A DNA stretch of 64,000 nucleotides, from NCBI RefSeq assembly GCF_002939305.1, contig NZ_MVDI01000003.1, positions 496,001-560,000 of the forward strand, written 5' to 3'. The position numbers and the translations under genes were made by a program. The stretch's first letter is position 1, and each line of letters begins with the position of its first letter. Under the pieces are notes generated by a model, which worked only from the letters and a program-made list of their open reading frames with translations, made no database searches and was not told the DNA's origin. Shown here in pieces: positions 14,734 to 21,953 of the stretch. The DNA is from Chroococcidiopsis sp. TS-821 (GTDB taxonomy: Bacteria > Cyanobacteriota > Cyanobacteriia > Cyanobacteriales > Chroococcidiopsidaceae).

Positions 14734-14806
14734 GCCCCCATCGTCTAGAGGCCTAGGACACCTCCCTTTCACGGAGGCGACGGGGATTCGAATTCCCCTG
14801 GGGGTA
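14734..14806 (+). tRNA. trnE: tRNA-Glu (anticodon UUC)
   Basis: A complete cloverleaf is present. The acceptor stem GCCCCCA pairs with UGGGGGU, with a G-U pair at the end. The anticodon stem CUCC/GGAG holds the loop CUUUCAC with anticodon UUC. The T arm is GGGGA-UUCGAAU-UCCCC, and the discriminator is A. No CCA is encoded. In cyanobacteria this tRNA also feeds 5-aminolevulinate and chlorophyll synthesis through glutamyl-tRNA reductase. Its last 20 bases form the left attachment core of an integrated element, which keeps the gene intact. Confidence 0.97.
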
Positions 14807-14807
14807 T
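14787..14807 (+). repeat. attL core, direct repeat of tRNA-Glu 3' end
   Basis: These 21 bases (TTCGAATTCCCCTGGGGGTA plus T) comprise the T-loop and 3' acceptor strand of tRNA-Glu. They recur exactly at 21188-21208 in the same orientation. The flanks differ at once on both sides, as expected for a site-specific recombination core. Confidence 0.93.
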
Positions 14808-14833
14808 AAAATCAACACGTTTTGAAGTAATTA

Positions 14834-14858
14834 AAGGAAGGCTCAAATTGCCTTCCTT
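14834..14858. terminator. Hairpin just inside the left end, probable bidirectional terminator
   Basis: A perfect 9-bp stem (AAGGAAGGC/GCCTTCCTT) with an 8-14 base distance to a T-rich stretch lies between tRNA-Glu and the 3' end of the integrase gene. It could end the tRNA transcript from the left and the integrase transcript from the right. Because it lies inside the element, the tRNA now uses an element-borne 3' flank. Confidence 0.6.
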
Positions 14859-14931
14859 GACTGCTTTTGGGGAATTGTCACTTTTGGACAATACCGTTAA
14901 TAGCCGTTGATAACCGCTTAATCCCTGCTGT

Positions 14932-14961
14932 TTTTTAGTCAGATTTTAGTCGGAAATTTCT
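14932..14961 (+). repeat. Left copy of 30-bp end repeat (candidate integrase arm site)
   Basis: The sequence TTTTTAGTCAGATTTTAG and the following bases to AAATTTCT match 21106-21135 at 27 of 30 positions in the same orientation. Sub-terminal repeats of this kind at both ends of a tRNA-integrated element are what arm-type binding sites of a tyrosine integrase look like. The left copy overlaps the integrase stop codon. Confidence 0.65.
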
Positions 14962-16078
14962 AATCAAGTTTTGGCGGTCTGGGACGCTCTGGTCTGAGCA
15001 TAAGGACATTGAAAGCTCTCTGATGTACATCTTCAGTAATCCAGTGATGGTAGGTATTTGAATGAACCTGAACGCTATGACCCATTTGTTGGGCTGCCAA
15101 GCTGATATCTAGCCCAAATTCCAATGTCCTTACTGCCCAACGGTGTCTCATGTCATAAAGTTTGAAGGGTAACTTGAAGTCTCCAAAGTAGTGACTACAG
15201 CTTTCCCCGATCGCGGTATTGGGTCGGTCTAATCTAATGTTGGGTAGTCTGACATCTTGGAGTTGAAACTCATCAAACCATTCTGGGTAACAAGCCCAAA
15301 CTAACCGCGCTCCTGTCTTAGTATTTTCTAAAACTGACACAATATTAGAGCCGTTTGCCAGCCGCTCTAAGTCAAGTCTGAAAACTTCATGTGGTCTTAA
15401 GCCATAGGTTGCAATCATCCCATAGACCCACCGCCAACCAGGATTAGTAATTTTGTACCACCACTGAGCAATTGTTAGATCGTCAGGTAAATCTCTGGGA
15501 GATACCCGATTAGGTGAATAGACACCAACTAAGTTTGAGGGGTCGTAGTCTATTTGAGCAAACTTAGCTAGGGCAGCGATCGCCATACAAGCCCGCTTTC
15601 TGGTTTTGGTATTGGGTGGGGTTGAGAGAATTACCTGTTCTAAAACCTCAACACTTAGTGTTACATCTTGAGGTAATCGCTTAAATATCTTCCAGTAATC
15701 AGTTTTCCATGAAGTTTCACTTTTACCTTCATTAAAAAACTGCACTTTATATTGCTCTATATATTCTGAAACTGAAATTGATTCAGGTGACTTCTCATAT
15801 AAGTAAGGCTGCCAGTCAAATTCTTTACGTGCTACCAGCGCACTAATCTTCCGAGCTTCTTTCTCTGCCTCAGCAATTCCTGCTGGGTTGGCACGGATAC
15901 CCAAGCGCTTTAAAGATACCCGTTGTTGGTAAGGTTGAGAATTCTTAGTTCCTGGTTTAGGTGGTAGCGTTCCCCGCAGATATAAGCTACTACCATCTAG
16001 TTCAATACTGATACCGACGTTTGCGGCTTTGAGCCTGCCATTGGTTTGAGCGATCCGCCCTTCAAGAGTAACAGCCAT
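14960..16078 (-). CDS. int: Tyrosine recombinase/integrase of the tRNA-Glu element
   Basis: A 372-aa tyrosine site-specific recombinase that should catalyse integration and excision at the tRNA-Glu core. Catalytic positions can be placed (ATG at 16078): Arg228 (TYGLRPHEV), Lys254 (NTKTGA), Arg311 (LYDMRHRW), His334 (QQMGHS) and Tyr343 (SNTYHHW). The usual His of the HxxR box is Tyr308. The N-terminal 120 residues hold an arm-binding region and then a SAM-like core-binding domain. The start codon overlaps the stop of the Xis-like gene (TAATG), so translation is probably coupled. A longer frame from 16120 exists but overlaps that gene by 43 bases. Confidence 0.92.
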   Translation of the reverse strand: MAVTLEGRIAQTNGRLKAANVGISIELDGSSLYLRGTLPPKPGTKNSQPYQQRVSLKRLGIRANPAGIAEAEKEARKISALVARKEFDWQPYLYEKSPESISVSEYIEQYKVQFFNEGKSETSWKTDYWKIFKRLPQDVTLSVEVLEQVILSTPPNTKTRKRACMAIAALAKFAQIDYDPSNLVGVYSPNRVSPRDLPDDLTIAQWWYKITNPGWRWVYGMIATYGLRPHEVFRLDLERLANGSNIVSVLENTKTGARLVWACYPEWFDEFQLQDVRLPNIRLDRPNTAIGESCSHYFGDFKLPFKLYDMRHRWAVRTLEFGLDISLAAQQMGHSVQVHSNTYHHWITEDVHQRAFNVLMLRPERPRPPKLD

Positions 16079-16290
16079 TAACTGATTCCCATAACTTGTT
16101 CTACTCGCTTTCTGTGCCAACGGTAAGTAGGACGCGCTGCTTTCTCATTGAGACAGTACCAGTGAGTACCTTTCTTTAACTCTCCAATATCACGCAATCG
16201 GTACAAATGATCTACTGAGCAGCCCAGAGTATCAGCCATTGCGCTGGTGGCGATCCAATCTTTGGGGTTACGTGTTCGTGCCATTGTCAT
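16078..16290 (-). CDS. Excisionase-like winged-helix/HTH protein
   Basis: A 70-aa basic protein with a MerR/Xis-like helix-turn-helix: WIATSAMADTLGCSVDHLYRLRDIG, then a wing-like GTHWYCLN and a terminal RWHRKRVEQVMGIS. Position directly upstream of the integrase gene with TAATG overlap, small size and basic charge fit a recombination directionality factor. Related small HTH proteins can also be transcription regulators, so excisionase is inferred. The likely start is one of the first two Met residues. Confidence 0.75.
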   Translation of the reverse strand: MTMARTRNPKDWIATSAMADTLGCSVDHLYRLRDIGELKKGTHWYCLNEKAARPTYRWHRKRVEQVMGIS

Positions 16291-16316
16291 ACCTCAAAGG
16301 ATTTTCAAAGCAAGCA

Positions 16317-16814
16317 TTAATAATCATTTGGATTAATAGGTCGCTTTCTCTCTCGCCTCTGGGCATCTTCTGCTCTCTCTTGCCTGCGTCTTTGATACAT
16401 TTCACTTGCGAGTGATTCTCCTAAAATATTTTCAAAATATTCATTCCCCTCTACTTTGAAGCCCGACCTTTCAATAGCCTCAAGATTGAGAAAACCTCGT
16501 TCTTTGAGAATATTGACCGCTTCAATACTGATTGAATCGTAGGGTTCAGTAAACATAGCATCGGGATGATCCAATGCACCATGATAAGCAGAATCAGGAA
16601 GTGTTAACACTCCGAGAAATGCAACCTTAGCCATTGGGTCAACCTTTTCAAAGCCTTCTGCTAGTCTCTCAACAACATCCCAAGTTGATGACTGTAGTTC
16701 ATTTCTGATTAGCTTGCCAATAGTTGATTGACCAACACCAGAAGCTTTAGAGAGAGCATAGTGACTCATATTCCATCTGGCCAAAACAAGCCTTAGCGCT
16801 TTGCCAAGTTTCAT
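16317..16814 (-). CDS. XRE-family HTH repressor of the element
   Basis: A protein of 165 aa with an N-terminal XRE/Cro-type helix-turn-helix (LRLVLARWNMSHYALSKASGVGQSTIGKLIRNE, residues about 7-40) and a charged C-terminal region ending in RRRQERAEDAQRRERKRP. I chose the ATG at 16814, because the frame to 16883 adds 23 hydrophobic residues before the HTH and overlaps the divergent RHH gene. It lies upstream of the xis-int pair on the same strand and head to head with the RHH-primase transcript. This is the layout of a lysogeny-type switch. Its operator is not proven. Confidence 0.8.
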   Translation of the reverse strand: MKLGKALRLVLARWNMSHYALSKASGVGQSTIGKLIRNELQSSTWDVVERLAEGFEKVDPMAKVAFLGVLTLPDSAYHGALDHPDAMFTEPYDSISIEAVNILKERGFLNLEAIERSGFKVEGNEYFENILGESLASEMYQRRRQERAEDAQRRERKRPINPNDY

Positions 16815-16876
16815 GCTATTAATAATACTATCGATTTTGATAACTATAATATCACTAAAGATATTATTTATATCAC

Positions 16877-17044
16877 ATGCCAAAATACCCTAGCACTTTA
16901 TCACCAATCAAACTCAAGCCCGAACAACATCAAGCTTTGAAGCGGGTTGCTGAAATTGAACAAACCAGTATTGGCACGATAGTACGTAAAGCAATTTCTG
17001 ACTATCTAGAGAAACGCGGTATATCCCTTAGCTCGGAACAATAA
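16877..17044 (+). CDS. Small ribbon-helix-helix (CopG/Arc-type) protein
   Basis: A 55-aa ORF starting ATG at 16877, beginning MPKYPSTLSPIKLKPEQHQA. It has a ribbon strand (SPIKLKP), helix A (EQHQALKRVAEIEQ), the turn TS and helix B (IGTIVRKAISDYLEKRG), which is the complete RHH DNA-binding fold. It is the first gene of the rightward transcript and ends 18 bp before the first of four 33-bp-spaced palindromic motifs. It may bind them as repressor or copy-number regulator, which is inference. A second RHH gene at 20252-20542 also lies next to copies of the same motif. Confidence 0.78.
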   Translation: MPKYPSTLSPIKLKPEQHQALKRVAEIEQTSIGTIVRKAISDYLEKRGISLSSEQ

Positions 17045-17061
17045 AGTGAACCACAAAAAAA

Positions 17062-17176
17062 GATACTGTACAGAATCAATTACTAGTTTTTATAGATACT
17101 GTACAGAATCAATTACTAGTCTTTATAGATACTGTACAGAATCATAATTCACATAGTTGTGATAATGTACAAAACC
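17062..17176 (+). promoter_or_regulatory. Four 16-bp near-palindromes at exact 33-bp spacing (iteron/operator array)
   Basis: GATACTGTACAGAATC occurs at 17062, 17095 and 17128, and the variant GATAATGTACAAAACC at 17161, so each start is exactly 33 bp after the last. The motif is a 14/16 palindrome centred on TGTACA. The first two spacers are nearly identical (AATTACTAGT plus T-rich tract), while the third differs, which suggests selection on the 16-mer and its phase. Three helical turns between sites would put bound proteins on one face. The array lies 57 bp before the primase ATG. It may be operator, plasmid-type iteron, or both. Confidence 0.85.
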
Positions 17177-17232
17177 TAAAGTATGCATCCAAAGCACTAA
17201 CACACTGACTTCTAATAAAAGCAAGAGGTTTT

Positions 17233-18444
17233 ATGAACAAAAAAACAAACGGCTCCTTGGAGAAAGTGAGCCGTGACAAAAACTTATACCCAGATTCTAA
17301 CAACAAACAGTTTCAAAATATACAAGCTCGCTTAAATGAGTCAGCATCTAAGCTCAATTCCAATGGTAATGGAAAATATACATATTCAGGTCGGCACAAC
17401 CCGTGTCCAATTTGTGGACGGACTAAAGACCAAGATTGCCACTGGAATGCGGAAGTAGTATTTTGCCACACTTACATAGATCAGGATGCTGGCGTTTCAG
17501 AATACGTGTATCGGGGAGCTAAAGATATTTGGGGTCTATACTTCCCGCAAGAGACATCCCAGAAGCCAATTAGACCTAAAAGTAAAAAAAGCTTTATCTA
17601 CAAAAACATTGACGGTCAACCATTGGTTAAAGTTACTCGCACTGATAGGGGTGACGGTAACAAGTCTTTCTACCAATCACATTGGAACGGTACAACGTGG
17701 GTTAAAGGATTAAATGAGCAAGTAAAATCTGAAATTCATTTGTATCAGATTCAAGACCCGATTAATCAGGATGCGATCGCCACGGGTAAACCCATCCTAA
17801 TTGTTGAGGGTGAGGGCAAAGTAGACCTGCTGCTAAAAATGGGCATAGCAGCAACGTGTTCTATTGGCGGCGCGCTTAAGTGGAGGCACTACGGTTATCC
17901 TAACTATCTTGACGACTTGGCAGGCGCGAACGTGGTTCTGTGTCCTGACCGAGATAAAGCAGGACTAAAGCATTGTGAGGACATAGCGCTTGACTTCCCC
18001 GCTGCTAAATGGCTTTATGTTCTCCCCAATTCCCCACTATGGCAACGAGTACCCGATAAAGGCGGGTTAGATATTGCGGACTGGATAAATGATGACGGTG
18101 CTACCCGTGAGGATATTTTGGGGGCAATTGGTGATAAGCGCCAGGAGTTAGAGAAACTCATGAAGCCAACCTTAGACACTAACCGTCCTAGTCAACAGAG
18201 AAAGGCTAAACTAGCGGTCAAGTATGAGCAGGTAGAAGCGGCAATTGGTCATAACATTAGGCTTAATACTCTAGCTCAGGCAATTGAGATAGCAGGAGAA
18301 CCTAAAACAATTGATCAAATTCAGATTGACCTTGCCCTGAAATACAATATTGACCTCTCTGACAATGCAGCCAGTAAAATTATCTTGACTTTGGCTGAAA
18401 AGAACCGCTACAGTCCTGCTGCTGAATATCTAGAGCGTGTTTAA
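17233..18444 (+). CDS. Zinc-finger/TOPRIM primase of the element
   Basis: A 403-aa replication protein. A CHC2-like zinc-binding region is seen at Cys58, Cys61, Cys69 and Cys78 (CPICGRTKDQDC, then VVFCH). A TOPRIM-type fold spans about residues 186-265, with the Glu in PILIVEGEGKVD and the Asp-x-Asp in VVLCPDRDKAG. Residues about 300-403 are helical and end in the segment NRYSPAAEYLERV, which in VapE-family proteins normally begins the helicase domain. The next ORF overlaps by 8 bases in the +1 frame. Primer synthesis for element replication is the inferred role. The start ATG has an AGAGG site upstream. Confidence 0.82.
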   Translation: MNKKTNGSLEKVSRDKNLYPDSNNKQFQNIQARLNESASKLNSNGNGKYTYSGRHNPCPICGRTKDQDCHWNAEVVFCHTYIDQDAGVSEYVYRGAKDIWGLYFPQETSQKPIRPKSKKSFIYKNIDGQPLVKVTRTDRGDGNKSFYQSHWNGTTWVKGLNEQVKSEIHLYQIQDPINQDAIATGKPILIVEGEGKVDLLLKMGIAATCSIGGALKWRHYGYPNYLDDLAGANVVLCPDRDKAGLKHCEDIALDFPAAKWLYVLPNSPLWQRVPDKGGLDIADWINDDGATREDILGAIGDKRQELEKLMKPTLDTNRPSQQRKAKLAVKYEQVEAAIGHNIRLNTLAQAIEIAGEPKTIDQIQIDLALKYNIDLSDNAASKIILTLAEKNRYSPAAEYLERV

Positions 18445-19321
18445 CGCACTGTACGGTGCAAACGATGCTCTGCTTAATGAAGCAGCAGCAAGATATCTAG
18501 GAACCGAAAAAGCATTTGACGGGCTGTTATTAAAGCGCTGCTTAATTAGTATTGTTGCTAGAGTTATACAGCCTGGTTGTCAAGTTGACACTTGCTTAAT
18601 TCTTAAAGGAGAGCAGGGAACGTTTAAAAGCTCTTTCTTTCGGGAACTGTTACCCGAACTGTCCTGGTTTGACGACTCCCTTGGTAAAGACGTAACTAAC
18701 AAAGACGAGCTAGCGAAATTACATCGCTGCGTGCTGATGGAGTGGGGAGAAATTGAAAAAGCCTTCTCCAAGAAACAAGCTGCTGATATCAAGCATTTCT
18801 TAACTCAGAGAATTGATCGGTTTCGCCCTGCATACCGTAGAGACATTCTTCTTTTTCCCAGAGCCAGCGTAATTGTAGGTACGACAAACAAAGAGGAGTT
18901 TCTGACCGATGAAACAGGCGATCGCCGTTTCTGGATTATAGAACCTAAGCGCATTGATTTACATAGACTCAAAACCGAACGCGATCGGCTTTGGGCTGCT
19001 GCAATGGCTGCTTACAAATCTGGTGAACGTTGGTGGTTGACCAAACAAGAGGAACAGATTGCTAACCAAAACAATGAGCAGTACAGAGATACCCATCCTT
19101 GGCAACCTACTGTTGAGGCATACTTGGAAGCTGCTGAAAAGACTGGAGGAATGGTCATAGCAACGGACATTCTATCCAAAATTAAACCTGAGCGAGACAA
19201 ACAGACAAAGAATGACCTGATGGAAGTGACTGCCATTATGCGGAAGTTGGGCTGGGTAAAAGGTAGTCGGGCACGGGTTGACAACGAACGGGTTTACCCT
19301 TGGCACAAACCATTACAGTAA
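18437..19321 (+). CDS. VapE/VirE-family (SF3-like) replication helicase
   Basis: A 294-aa P-loop ATPase of the virulence-associated protein E family (PF05272 type). Walker A is GEQGTFKSS (58-66), the Walker B region is CVLMEWGEIE (98-106), the sensor is GTTNKEEF (about 148-155) and the Arg-rich GDRRFW is at 161-166. These proteins act with a primase in satellites, plasmids and prophage remnants. The start is a GTG at 18437 inside the last codons of the primase ORF. The product lacks the first conserved block of the domain, which is found at the end of the preceding ORF, so the pair may be a split or frameshifted primase-helicase. The candidate origin begins 38 bp after the stop. Confidence 0.88.
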   Translation: MFNALYGANDALLNEAAARYLGTEKAFDGLLLKRCLISIVARVIQPGCQVDTCLILKGEQGTFKSSFFRELLPELSWFDDSLGKDVTNKDELAKLHRCVLMEWGEIEKAFSKKQAADIKHFLTQRIDRFRPAYRRDILLFPRASVIVGTTNKEEFLTDETGDRRFWIIEPKRIDLHRLKTERDRLWAAAMAAYKSGERWWLTKQEEQIANQNNEQYRDTHPWQPTVEAYLEAAEKTGGMVIATDILSKIKPERDKQTKNDLMEVTAIMRKLGWVKGSRARVDNERVYPWHKPLQ

Positions 19322-19358
19322 AATAGTTTATTTTCTCGGTAGCGGATAAGAACCTAAT

Positions 19359-19759
19359 AAAAAAAAAGTTTTTAGGCAAAAAAGGTTGGGACGGTTGGGA
19401 CAAATCCTTGAAATGCTCTCCCAGAAAGCTTTCTAGCTGTCCCAACCCCCTTAAAAAGGTTGGGACAGGGTTGGGACAAAAATTGAGTAAAACGCTGAAT
19501 GTTAATTAGGGAAAGCTTTCTAGCTGTCCCAACCTCCAAGCTGCATCCCTAAACCACATTTGTCCCAACCTTAACATAAGTATACAAAAAGGTAGGGACA
19601 GCCTATAAGCTATATACAGTATGGGTTATAGAGTTTTATATATATAATTTTGTCCCTACCCCTCTAAAGAGGTTAGGACAGCTAGGAGTACTGCAAATAG
19701 GTCATTACGCGGATTTGTCCCAACCGTCCCAACCTTTTTTGCCTAAAAACTTTTTTTTT
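19359..19759. other. Candidate replication origin: 49-bp inverted repeats enclosing GGTTGGGAC iterons
   Basis: Bases 19359-19407 and 19711-19759 are perfect inverted repeats of 49 bp. Inside and within them GGTTGGGAC occurs nine times: top strand at 19384, 19393, 19458 and 19469, and bottom strand at 19439, 19526, 19562, 19717 and 19726. Three one-base variants are at 19591, 19652 and 19671. A 24-bp direct repeat (19424-19447 and 19511-19534) carries two of these. The centre (about 19571-19660) is AT-rich with TTTTATATATATAATTTT. The region directly follows the primase and helicase genes, the position of the origin in SaPI-type islands. No coding potential is seen. Confidence 0.8.
19424..19534 (+). 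repeat. 24-bp direct repeat pair within the origin region
   Basis: The 24 bases beginning GAAAGCTTTCTAGCTG at 19424-19447 are repeated exactly at 19511-19534, an 87-bp period. Each copy ends in an inverted GGTTGGGAC iteron. The first copy forms a hairpin with the iteron at 19458 (GTCCCAACC/GGTTGGGAC, 19439-19466). Confidence 0.85.
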
Positions 19760-20251
19760 TGCGTTCTCGTCAAGAAGTGGAAATTACCCAAGAATTTGTT
19801 TTGGGTGACTCAACACACAACCGCTGCTTAAGGCTTAAGCAGCAAGGCTTTTAGTTGTTAGTGTTTCGCGTGTATTAATAGCCTGCATCACTAAATAACA
19901 GATACAGTTGGCGCAAGAAATTTTAAGGTACGGGTATTAATACCCGTACCTCACTAGAACATCAAATTAAGTGTTTACTAATCAACTTTTGGTCTTTTTA
20001 CCACTTGCAGCTGCCGCCCATAAATGGATGCCCACACTAAATGCTAACGAGTTGATTTTAGGCGCTCTTTTACGCTATGGAACTGGATGCAAAGCTATGC
20101 TTTCGCGCTTGACTACTTGCTCTAACCAACACTTGCACCGCGTAGTAGTCTGCTAGCAAACTATATAGTTTTGAAAGAGTATCCCAGCGTTGTTGTGCTT
20201 CGCTCCACACAGACAACTTTTGATTAAAACTGATTAGAAATTACAGGATGC
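19760..20251. other. Non-coding right shoulder of the origin with two perfect palindromes
   Basis: No credible gene is seen in this stretch. The open frame at 19971-20156 lacks any recognisable feature and starts GTG without a ribosome site. Two strong dyads occur. One is at 19823-19843 (GCTGCTTAAG/CTTAAGCAGC with one central base). The other is the 26-bp perfect palindrome at 19926-19951 (AGGTACGGGTATT and its complement). Neither is followed by a T-run, so they look more like protein-binding or origin structures than terminators. Confidence 0.6.
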
Positions 20252-20542
20252 CTATTGATTTTGTACATTTTCCATAATTGATACTACTTCCTTGATAATG
20301 GTTTTACCTTTCCCAAAATTATTGGTTGGGTAATTAAGTGTCTCCTTCAGCATATCTAGGACTTTCTGATTGTGTACGTTATCTATATTGTTAGTAGTAT
20401 CACCCCGATCCAAACGTCTTGCGTAGTTTAGTAACTCTTGGGCAAAACATTCAGGTACTCGGATAGCAACAGTCTTTTTATGATTCCAGGGTGAGGGTCT
20501 ACCTGACCCTTCACGCGATCCACCACGACCAGACATAGACAT
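20252..20542 (-). CDS. Ribbon-helix-helix-like DNA-binding protein
   Basis: A 96-aa basic protein. After a Gly/Ser-rich basic start (GRGGSREGSGRPSPW) comes a probable RHH fold: ribbon KTVAIRVPE, helix FAQELLNYARRLDRG and a second helix around HNQKVLDMLKETLN. Similar proteins with the GSGRP start are common on cyanobacterial plasmids. It is transcribed leftward, head to head with hicAB. Two copies of the TGTACA near-palindrome lie in its upstream region (20554 and 20589) and two degenerate copies lie in its own coding sequence. Autoregulation is likely but unproven. Confidence 0.72.
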   Translation of the reverse strand: MSMSGRGGSREGSGRPSPWNHKKTVAIRVPECFAQELLNYARRLDRGDTTNNIDNVHNQKVLDMLKETLNYPTNNFGKGKTIIKEVVSIMENVQNQ

Positions 20543-20553
20543 GAATTACTTGA

Positions 20554-20604
20554 TAGGTTATGTACATTATCATAATAAGGCAAGTAATGATTCTGTACAA
20601 TATC
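20554..20604 (-). promoter_or_regulatory. Two inverted copies of the TGTACA near-palindrome before the RHH gene and hicAB
   Basis: On the bottom strand, GATATTGTACAGAATC (20604-20589) and GATAATGTACATAACC (20569-20554) match the array at 17062-17176 with one to three changes. They lie in the divergent promoter region of the RHH gene (start 20542) and hicA (20652). The same operator family at both control regions of the element suggests a shared regulator. Confidence 0.8.
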
Positions 20605-20651
20605 TATACAATGTGATATTGTGGCAATATTCAAGATAGGAGAATATGTAG

Positions 20652-20840
20652 TTGAAGGTACGTGAGGTCATCAAGCTGATAGAAGCTGATGGTTGGGTAC
20701 TAGTACGTACCAGAGGTAGTCACCGACAGTACCACCATTCAAATAAGCCTGGGACGGTCACGATACCTGGAAAGCCATCTGATGATTTATCCCCTGGATT
20801 GCTCAACAGTATTTTGAGACAAGCTGGATTAAAAGGTTGA
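20652..20840 (+). CDS. hicA: HicA-type mRNA interferase toxin
   Basis: A 62-aa protein with the HicA dsRBD-like fold. It has KVREVIKLIEADGWVLVRTRGSHRQYHH, which contains the catalytic His in GSHRQY, then GTVTIPGKPSDDLSPGLLNSILRQAGL. HicA toxins cleave mRNA and are neutralised by HicB, encoded 4 bp downstream. The start is unusual: an in-frame ATG at 20646 with a good TAGGAG site is followed at once by a TAG stop, and the next codon is the TTG at 20652 used here. Translation may therefore be weak. Toxin function is inferred from the family. Confidence 0.85.
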   Translation: MKVREVIKLIEADGWVLVRTRGSHRQYHHSNKPGTVTIPGKPSDDLSPGLLNSILRQAGLKG

Positions 20841-20844
20841 AGTT

Positions 20845-21102
20845 ATGAAATACGCAATCGTGATTGAAAAAGCAGAGAGTAACTACGGGGCTTACGTTCC
20901 TGATTTACCTGGATGTGTAGCGACAGGTCAAACCGTAGAGGAGACTTTAGAGCAGATACAAGAGGCGATCGCATTTCATTTGGAGGGAATGCTGCTGCAT
21001 GGTGAGGTCATTCCTGAGCCTACTAGCTTATGCCAATACGTAGATGTTCAAGCACCATCGGTTGAGCAAGCTGCTGGTACGTCAACAAGGGTAATCTCTT
21101 AG
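20845..21102 (+). CDS. hicB: HicB-type antitoxin
   Basis: An 85-aa HicB protein with the partial RNase H-like fold: MKYAIVIEKAESNYGAYVPDLPGCVATGQTVEE, then TLEQIQEAIAFHLEGMLLHGEVIPEP. It neutralises HicA and usually autoregulates the operon. It lacks a clear C-terminal HTH or RHH DNA-binding domain, so operon control may rest on another protein such as the adjacent RHH gene. The pair sits at the right end of the element, a typical place for a stabilising module. Confidence 0.9.
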   Translation: MKYAIVIEKAESNYGAYVPDLPGCVATGQTVEETLEQIQEAIAFHLEGMLLHGEVIPEPTSLCQYVDVQAPSVEQAAGTSTRVIS

Positions 21103-21105
21103 TAC

Positions 21106-21135
21106 TTTTTAGTCAGATTTTAGGCACAAATTTCT
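21106..21135 (+). repeat. Right copy of 30-bp end repeat (candidate integrase arm site)
   Basis: This matches 14932-14961 at 27 of 30 positions, with 18 identical bases (TTTTTAGTCAGATTTTAG) first. It lies 52 bp inside the right attachment core, directly after the hicB stop. Confidence 0.65.
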
Positions 21136-21187
21136 TCAGAATTCTCTAATGCTGTTACCACGGGGATTTTACTGACTTGCTAGGAGG

Positions 21188-21208
21188 TTCGAATTCCCCT
21201 GGGGGTAT
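21188..21208 (+). repeat. attR core, direct repeat of tRNA-Glu 3' end
   Basis: An exact 21-base copy of 14787-14807. The rest of the tRNA is absent here, so this is a tRNA 3' fragment and not a gene. Host chromosome resumes to its right. Confidence 0.93.
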
Positions 21209-21365: not shown

Positions 21366-21953
21366 TTAGCTAAAGACTTCTGCTACGCGCTGACGAATAG
21401 CAACTAAGTTTATTTGCATATCTTTACTAAGGCGGCGCTCTATAATCGAGACAGGCATAGTACGCTTTGGTAAAACACAAACGATATATTCTAAATTTGT
21501 TCCAACGCGCTCGGCTAAACAGTACGGCTCTAAGCACCAGCTACCAGAAAAATCCTTAAAGTCACCCTCAACCATCTGAAAATCAATTTTTTGCGGAAAC
21601 TTCTCTTCTAAGTCAAGGATGACGCGTGCAGAGAAATTGAAATTCAGTAAACGCTGAGTGCCGACTTGTTCCAAGCGGATACCACCTGTGGGATGTTCAA
21701 GGCGCTGACTGCGAGCCAGGTTCGGGATAAAGTCAGCTAACGTCTCATAGTCGGTGAGGACTTGCCATACTTGCTCGATTTCATGAGGAATTTGGATGCG
21801 TGCAGAAATACGGCGATATCGCTCAGCTAAGCGCTCAGTTTGGACTTCTACTGCCTGTAACAGCGCAGTCGTTGCAGAGGTATTAGACAATTCTACTTCT
21901 AAATTAGGGTTGTAGTCTTGAGTCACAGTTGTACTAAGTTTGAGCTTGGTCAA
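21366..21953 (-). CDS. SRPBCC-family (cyclase/START-like) protein
   Basis: A 195-aa protein with the SRPBCC/START-like fold: RIQIPHEIEQVWQVLTDYETLADFIPNLARSQ (residues about 50-82) and later strands including GSWCLEPY. The family binds hydrophobic ligands such as lipids, quinones or polyketides. The first 40 residues are an extra extension. The reading frame overlaps the end of the upstream histidine kinase gene by 20 bases, so the two are cotranscribed. A ligand cannot be predicted. Confidence 0.82.
   Translation of the reverse strand: MTKLKLSTTVTQDYNPNLEVELSNTSATTALLQAVEVQTERLAERYRRISARIQIPHEIEQVWQVLTDYETLADFIPNLARSQRLEHPTGGIRLEQVGTQRLLNFNFSARVILDLEEKFPQKIDFQMVEGDFKDFSGSWCLEPYCLAERVGTNLEYIVCVLPKRTMPVSIIERRLSKDMQINLVAIRQRVAEVFS

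Follow-up and report, generated by a model that had tools for sequence, protein, structure and literature searches.

The analysed window, a 64-kb stretch of the genome of Chroococcidiopsis sp. TS-821 (5.23 Mb in 72 contigs), contains an insert of about 6.4 kb at a tRNA-Glu gene. This insert is probably an integrative plasmid-like element that replicates and controls its copy number by itself and uses tRNA-Glu as its attachment site. The element has an integrase, direct repeats as attachment (att) sites, and an empty site in relatives of the host. At the sequence level, it also has its own initiator, split in this copy, and a candidate iteron origin. In the two collections of records that were searched, plasmids account for all DNA matches of the element, and circular plasmids of 13 and 17 kb carry an integrase of the same family, ~40% identical.

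Insertion at tRNA-Glu and related elements

The tRNA-Glu(TTC) gene is the sole tRNA gene in the window, and it is the only match to that gene found in the host genome. Its 3' end is repeated as the exact 21-bp sequence TTCGAATTCCCCTGGGGGTAT, and the two copies are 6,401 bp apart (Table 1). The preliminary description of this DNA had proposed these repeats as the ends of the element, and they were confirmed. Between the cores, the genes for the integrase, the xis-like helix-turn-helix (HTH) protein, and the repressor are directed leftward, and those for the small ribbon-helix-helix (RHH) protein, the primase, and the VapE-type helicase rightward. The helicase gene is followed by ~930 bp without any recognised gene, of which the first 430 bp are repeat-rich, by the minus-strand gene for a 96-aa regulator, and by hicAB. 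The nine element proteins were scanned with Pfam, PHROGs, and NCBIfam. The gene order was found as described earlier, with the families supported except for the 96-aa regulator, and no structural gene was recognised among the nine proteins, as also described. The Rfam scan found the tRNA alone, scans of the sequence for promoters and terminators stayed at chance level, and PADLOC, run on eight proteins of the window and two of the sibling locus L077, gave a weak HicA-like match alone. The G+C content is 42.0% in the insert vs. 42.8% in the remainder of the window.

Table 1. Coordinates of the features of the element (positions in the window) and of related features in other genomes.
Feature	Position	Strand	Remark
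tRNA-Glu (TTC), integration target	14734..14806	+	
attL core, last 20 bases of tRNA-Glu plus one	14787..14807	+	exact 21-bp repeat
Tyrosine integrase	14960..16120	-	PHROG_1 2e-15; Pfam weak, 1e-3, under cut-off
xis-like small HTH protein	16078..16290	-	HTH_17 2e-3 (weak); PHROG_66 excisionase 1e-3
Cro/C1-type HTH repressor (putative)	16317..16883	-	HTH_26 3e-4, just under cut-off; PHROG_3 4e-5
Small RHH (Arc/CopG-like) protein	16877..17044	+	divergent from repressor; Pfam RHH_3 4e-3; PHROG_3180 2e-4
Operator array before primase	17061..17178		33-bp repeats with TGTACA centres
Primase half (Toprim-type) of primase-helicase	17233..18444	+	PHROG_6088 9e-12
VapE-like helicase half	18437..19321	+	PF05272 1e-70; own frame in this copy
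Candidate origin	19359..19759		9 GGTTGGGAC iterons in nested inverted repeat
96-aa plasmid-type RHH-like regulator	20252..20542	-	pCHRO.02 match; putative copy control
Inverted copy of TGTACA operators, upstream of 96-aa regulator	20554..20608		82%
HicA toxin	20652..20840	+	PF07927 3e-25
HicB-like antitoxin	20845..21102	+	PF15919 6e-17
attR core	21188..21208	+	followed by flank that directly adjoins tRNA-Glu in G002 empty site
Broken hicA in decayed copies	L141 90-276 (G001); L142 1816-2002 (G010)		
Distant integrase homologues	G000:C2:362568-363740; G002:C1:2667775-2668947; G010:C2:366240-367406; G060:C2:249388-250533; G101:C1:363730-364818		

The tRNA-Glu locus was compared among 19 genomes of the family, the host's own included, and was counted as empty when tRNA-Glu and the right-hand gene lie within 300 bp. 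It is empty in 14 genomes and occupied in three (the host, G001, and G010); two genomes were not classed, as one has no called tRNA and the other has the genes on separate contigs. In G002, from the same genus as the host, a single alignment spans the joined flanks at the empty site with 82% identity. Clean insertion at the 21-bp core rebuilds the tRNA, in agreement with the earlier claim that tRNA-Glu is regenerated intact. The same genes in place without a second core, a case named in the preliminary description as a possible refutation, were not seen: the 14 family genomes with one core also lack the genes there. This makes it very unlikely that the repeat is an assembly artefact, and that explanation was set aside in view of the empty sites and the sibling copies. 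The locus is flanked by an Npun_R1517-family gene on one side and by a gene at 21366-21953 on the other; the product of the latter, which has no family match, may be SRPBCC-like as judged by reading its sequence.

The two other occupied loci in the family contain decayed copies. In G010, which belongs to another genus, a 3-kb version is present at the same tRNA-Glu. Its integrase is in two pieces, and BrnT/BrnA-like toxin-antitoxin open reading frames (ORFs; assigned by ORF reading, L142 2858-3329) stand where the replication genes would be; there is no VapE match in this genome. The stretch from the regulator to hicAB shows 94% DNA identity to that of the window. In G001, the left end joins the middle of the primase gene, the primase-helicase gene is fused but contains a stop, and the right core is on a separate contig. 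Here the identity to the window is 90% for the regulator and 95% for the hicAB stretch. In these two copies, the integrase is in pieces or gone and the primase is gone or cut, while hicB has an open frame in G010 and is almost complete in G001, and the 96-aa regulator is largely open in both.

Two complete sibling elements were found in other tRNA genes. The one in G015 (L077; another genus of the same family) is 6.80 kb long and is inserted in tRNA-Met with a 47-bp core. Its proteins are identical to those of the window element at 44% (helicase), 45% (primase), 49% (RHH protein), 41% (repressor), 82% (xis-like protein), and 50% (integrase); it carries one more gene, located between int and xis, and its orientation is opposite to its tRNA. 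The one in G150, from another family of the class, is 5.34 kb long and is inserted in tRNA-Trp with a 78-bp core. The identities are 45% for the integrase, 46% for xis, 31% for the repressor, 37% for the RHH protein, and 38% for the primase, and the helicase domain is a different one. In the window element and both siblings, int-xis-repressor is opposed to RHH-primase, and the core order is common.

Control region, replication genes, and candidate origin

The gene for the 96-aa regulator and its operator region show 75% DNA identity over 360 columns to pCHRO.02, a 2,779-bp plasmid of Chroococcidiopsis thermalis PCC 7203, in which the regulator gene adjoins rep. At least three TGTACA-centred operators precede the primase gene of the window, and an inverted copy precedes the gene for the 96-aa regulator. 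The interval between rep and the regulator gene in pCHRO.02 weakly matches the operator array before the primase (74% over 66 columns). The match to pCHRO.02 is the strongest sign of plasmid-type copy control in the element. The preliminary description had called this regulator a second RHH protein; no RHH family match was seen in the Pfam, PHROGs, and NCBIfam scans, and what stands is the presence of the gene on a plasmid. pCHRO.02 differs from the window element in having another rep protein (no similarity to the window primase was reported), three annotated genes, and no integrase. Proteins similar to the small RHH protein encoded before the primase are present in L077 and L150.

The primase is 45% identical over 87% to a protein of the Nostoc plasmid pNsp_l, vs. 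32% over 50% at best for phage proteins (17 records). This proximity to plasmid proteins strengthens the plasmid interpretation, about as much as the loss of hicA in the decayed copies weakens the idea of addiction. In the sampled cyanobacterial genomes, the best primase match is ~60% identical over two thirds, and 53 of 388 genomes have a match at E 1e-20. The helicase is 42% identical to plasmid proteins and 40% to a protein of phage S-LBS1, the best among VapE relatives in 632 phage records; VapE is also encoded on plasmids down to 3.1 kb. Nostoc plasmids with primase and VapE (pNsp_l and others, ~34-49 kb) show 40-45% identity in the primase and 40-42% in VapE, and C. aponinum plasmids of 5.8 and 6.3 kb show 27% and 35%, respectively. 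Unlike in the window copy, primase and VapE are a single gene in pNsp_l and in C. aponinum AL20115. pNsp_l also differs from the window element in its larger size and its relaxase. Besides the best primase match among the plasmids, pNsp_l has a psbA gene together with a MobC/relaxase pair (L145 23555-24637).

The primase and helicase are encoded by a single gene in all eight relatives checked, by in-frame reading in L059, L061, L077, and L082 and as a single coding sequence or ORF in L145, L146, L147, and L207. In the window copy, the frame shifts by one at 18437-18444, and the GTG start of the helicase overlaps the primase stop. From this frame change, the window copy is predicted to make two proteins or one truncated protein. 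A programmed +1 frameshift, which the stop context had raised, was judged less likely, as none of the eight relatives shares the split; a change private to this copy is preferred. With primase and helicase in different frames, the function of the window copy may be reduced in part. In some distant VapE genes (G015:C133, G056, and G019:C101), the open frame spans just 326-421 aa, too short to include a primase, and in the loci with a separate primase (L328-L331) the split differs from that of the window. The P-loop of the helicase is within the range of relatives, with a glycine at the position in 22 of 47 rows (duplicates included). Loss of ATPase activity through an unusual P-loop was rejected, since many relatives are also without the glycine.

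Behind the helicase gene, GGTTGGGAC occurs nine times in both orientations within ~350 bp (19384-19734) and nowhere else in the window. The expected count is 0.16, and none of 100 shuffles reached nine. The nested inverted repeat of this region has a fold z of -14.4 against shuffles. The array proposed in the preliminary description is thus real as a clustered sequence feature. Arrays of at least four repeated 9-mers were searched from -300 to +700 of the end of primase-helicase genes and were found in 16 of 42 loci, vs. 34 of 1,162 control windows (Fisher 5e-13, approximate because the control windows overlap). The 42 loci are a chosen list that includes the window, and 26 of them have no array; the repeat GCGATCGC, which we take to be HIP1, was masked. 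The arrays in these 16 loci are element-specific, often with a GGT core, and lie at or just behind the primase-helicase gene. The unit is GGTTGTGAC in G015, GGTTGTAAC in G013, GGTTAGGCA in phage S-LBS1, and CGGTAGACA in two family-f45 genomes. The iteron region of the window is read as a putative replication origin by analogy with satellites in which the origin follows the primase (PMC10111431).

Integrase family and larger virus-like elements

The integrase probably starts at the ATG at 16078, near the start of the proteins of its relatives. R242, K268, R325, H348, and Y357, which we take to be the catalytic residues, are invariant across eight sequences. The xis-like protein may act as the directionality factor. 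Integrase matches at E 1e-10 or better are present in at least 296 of 388 sampled cyanobacterial genomes (both this set and the set of 368 genomes used below are samples). With the window integrase as the sole query and eight duplicates removed, 48 distinct loci have an integrase at least 45% identical. A tRNA gene lies within 700 bp in 27 of them, and in these the integrase gene is always 66-178 bp from the tRNA 3' end. The tRNAs are those for Glu, Ala, Leu, Phe, Thr, Lys, Met, and Trp. In a set of 35 tRNA-adjacent loci, which includes reversed duplicates and was scored with the better of two query integrases, a second core copy was seen on the same strand in five and on the opposite strand in two; the second core of L194 (two mismatches, upstream) is probably due to chance.

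In a quick tree, the window integrase and one from a tRNA-Ala locus form a pair (support 95) within a group of 15 rows (support 93), seven other rows of which are at tRNA-Glu. The integrases at tRNA-Phe are split over two groups. The five small elements do not form one clade (four changes; 191 of 500 shuffles are as low), which speaks against a single satellite lineage defined by the integrase. A distant homologue, 36-40% identical, is present once in each of five of six genomes examined, even in one of 1.7 Mb (Table 1). These homologues look chromosomal and are perhaps housekeeping Xer-like recombinases; the four that were placed in the quick tree do not form one group.

The same integrase family is present in larger elements. 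In G002, an element of ~19.2 kb is in tRNA-Phe with a 24-bp candidate core (L343 9603 to L344 12829). In G222, a 15,374-bp element is present in tRNA-Leu as a head-to-tail tandem pair (G222:C1; L066 1028-16402 and L345), and the two copies are 100% identical over the 14,850 bp compared, which may be a sign of recent activity. The larger elements share a beta-rich protein of 230-260 aa, a coiled-coil protein of 650-730 aa, a protein of 486-525 aa (two genes in G002), and small proteins. Other loci of larger elements are L174, L182, L189, and L215. The scans named endolysins (M15 in G222 and a peptidoglycan-binding one in G002) and gave a Baculo_PEP_C match (2e-13) for the coiled-coil protein, and otherwise one PHROG of unknown function and weak coiled-coil matches. 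No terminase or capsid was recognised in the scanned proteins of the G002 and G222 elements. At least two of the shared block genes are present in 15 of 92 loci (a count in which the G002 element figures as two pieces and reversed duplicates are kept), and endolysins like those of G222 and G002 at only three loci.

Relatives of the 525-aa protein of this block were found in 88 of the 368 cyanobacterial genomes sampled but in none of 50,697 phage records. Partial matches are on four plasmids of 15-37 kb, and a single-pattern scan of IMG/VR gave no confirmed match. At least 28 places of this protein are within 20 kb of an integrase place, in pairs picked by eye and then checked. Its structure model (pLDDT 54.6) is too poor for a structure search; the beta-rich protein (model pLDDT 73) gave weak jelly-roll capsid-like matches with TM below 0.5. 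The tRNA-Met sibling contains one conserved gene of the larger elements, 49% identical to that of G002. Neither the 525-aa protein nor its C-terminal part has a match in the host of the window element. It is possible that these larger elements represent an undescribed virus family.

Nature of the element

If the element is an integrative plasmid, its repressor would hold it quiet. Once repression is lifted, the integrase and xis would excise a circle, and the primase-helicase would unwind and prime it at the iterons. Copy number would be limited at the TGTACA sites by the RHH protein, the 96-aa regulator, or both; HicAB would aid retention, and the circle would re-enter tRNA-Glu. Movement from cell to cell would need an outside carrier, such as transformation, conjugation by another plasmid, or phage particles.

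Several observations weigh against this interpretation. The excised circle and the replication of the element are predictions from its sequence. No partition or relaxase gene was found among the nine element proteins, which leaves its spread unexplained. The order of the genes would suit a phage satellite as well, the helicase is about equally near to phage and plasmid proteins, and the tRNA-Met sibling has a gene of the virus-like family. The primase-helicase frame is split here and fused in all relatives checked. hicA is frame-broken in both decayed copies, at different places; retention of these copies is therefore not enforced by the toxin, and HicAB as the force keeping them was dropped.

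The preliminary description had left the choice between a satellite and an integrative replicon. The tRNA-regenerating replicon, the divergent regulators, and the layout shared with the siblings were supported; satellite nature was not, as no packaging or structural gene was found and the matches are on the plasmid side. A phage satellite similar to phage-inducible chromosomal islands (PICI) or PICMI would reside in tRNA-Glu, be induced by an infecting or resident phage, replicate with its own primase-helicase, and be packaged without packaging genes of its own. This is unlikely, although the size and the minimal set of integrase, HTH regulator, and primase recall PICMI115, the origins of PICI are described behind the primase (PMC10111431), the VapE relative of S-LBS1 is accompanied by an array of its own, and the L077 sibling retains a gene of the virus-like family. 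No packaging, capsid, or late gene is present among the nine proteins, there is no element DNA match among 50,697 phage records, and the control region is plasmid-like. IMG/VR gave no match with the single integrase, and by alignment 76 loci, all at most 43% identical; by primase it gave two distant loci, one of which (L026) has terminase, portal, and head genes. No PF03354 terminase, the single family tested, is present in the host, and no helper is known. A satellite carried by the particles of the virus-like tRNA-integrating cyanobacterial family itself, a view based on the shared integrase family and the one conserved gene in the tRNA-Met sibling, seems improbable.

The element may be dying, i.e., a replicon that was formerly mobile but is now fixed, its replication gene being broken. 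This is compatible with the other explanations, and we regard it as quite possible, though short of likely. The frame split and the two clearly decayed relatives at the same tRNA are in its favour. On the other hand, all other genes including hicA are open, the catalytic residues of the integrase are intact, the helicase ORF begins with a GTG of its own that overlaps the primase stop, and the P-loop of the helicase falls within the variation seen among relatives. There is little probability that the element is a remnant of a larger prophage or virus-like element stripped of its structural genes. The integrase family is common to larger elements with conserved unknown genes, some with an endolysin, and small and large types are intermixed in the quick integrase tree; but the compact core, bounded by exact att sites, is found again in distant hosts, which argues for a maintained small form, and the window element has no match to the block genes of the larger elements.

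Compared with known systems, the integrative plasmid-like element shares features with several classes. PICMI, which are satellites of Vibrio phages, resemble it by description only, in a size of ~6 kb, an integrase, an HTH regulator, a primase, short direct repeats, and no packaging genes found. PICMI115 is 6,110 bp long with 17-bp repeats, int, alpA, and prim, has no packaging genes found, and is carried by a virulent phage (PMC10803314). PICMI have their own features, namely fis integration, an AlpA regulator, and a proven helper; the window element is in tRNA-Glu instead of the fis site given with int, AlpA, and prim (PMC10803314) and has no AlpA family match. The integrase, regulators, primase, and candidate origin behind the primase are as in PICI and the Staphylococcus aureus pathogenicity islands (SaPI) (PMC10111431). 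The window element differs in that no match to a packaging, capsid-interference, or late gene was found among its nine proteins, and in having no proven helper. SaPI-type elements have a divergent layout. The P4-like markers Psu, delta, epsilon, alpha (PF03288), and AlpA (PF05930), from the profile list of PMC8628076, gave no match at Pfam E 0.1 or better; Sid, for which there is only a custom profile, was outside this test. No match to the relaxase or conjugation genes expected of integrative mobilizable or conjugative elements (IME/ICE) was seen among the nine proteins. The plasmids with the ~40% identical integrase (L325, Picosynechococcus PCC 8807, 13,153 bp; L326, Microcystis NIES-298, 17,272 bp) are circular and have DUF3987 or VapE replication genes. 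L325 also carries an endolysin, and both are candidate phage-plasmids.

In cyanobacteria, tRNA-site prophages are described in S. elongatus (PMC9239245), and PMC8262856 is related literature. Tycheposons and VEIMEs are reported as satellite types from marine settings including cyanobacteria (PMC11389934, PMC10872708), and tycheposons combine a tyrosine recombinase and a tRNA in elements of 4-200 kb with cargo (PMC10872708); their likeness to the window element is by description only. In the literature on phage satellites, VapE, and tRNA islands in cyanobacteria, this element type was undescribed among the matches listed. The earlier statement that such elements are little described in cyanobacteria is fair within those matches, with the qualification that tycheposons and VEIMEs are already published (PMC11389934).

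With this element, a minimal integrative replicon is now defined in cyanobacteria: its ends are exact, empty sites and siblings exist, and an origin is predicted. The ends, empty sites, and siblings make excision, copy control, and transfer directly testable, and the iteron pattern at primase-helicase genes offers a route to finding origins. Through the integrase, a virus-like family came to light; one of its proteins is present in about a quarter of the sampled cyanobacterial genomes. The element combines plasmid-type control with a VapE initiator and an integrase for tRNA sites, which suggests a way in which plasmids and satellites may interconvert.

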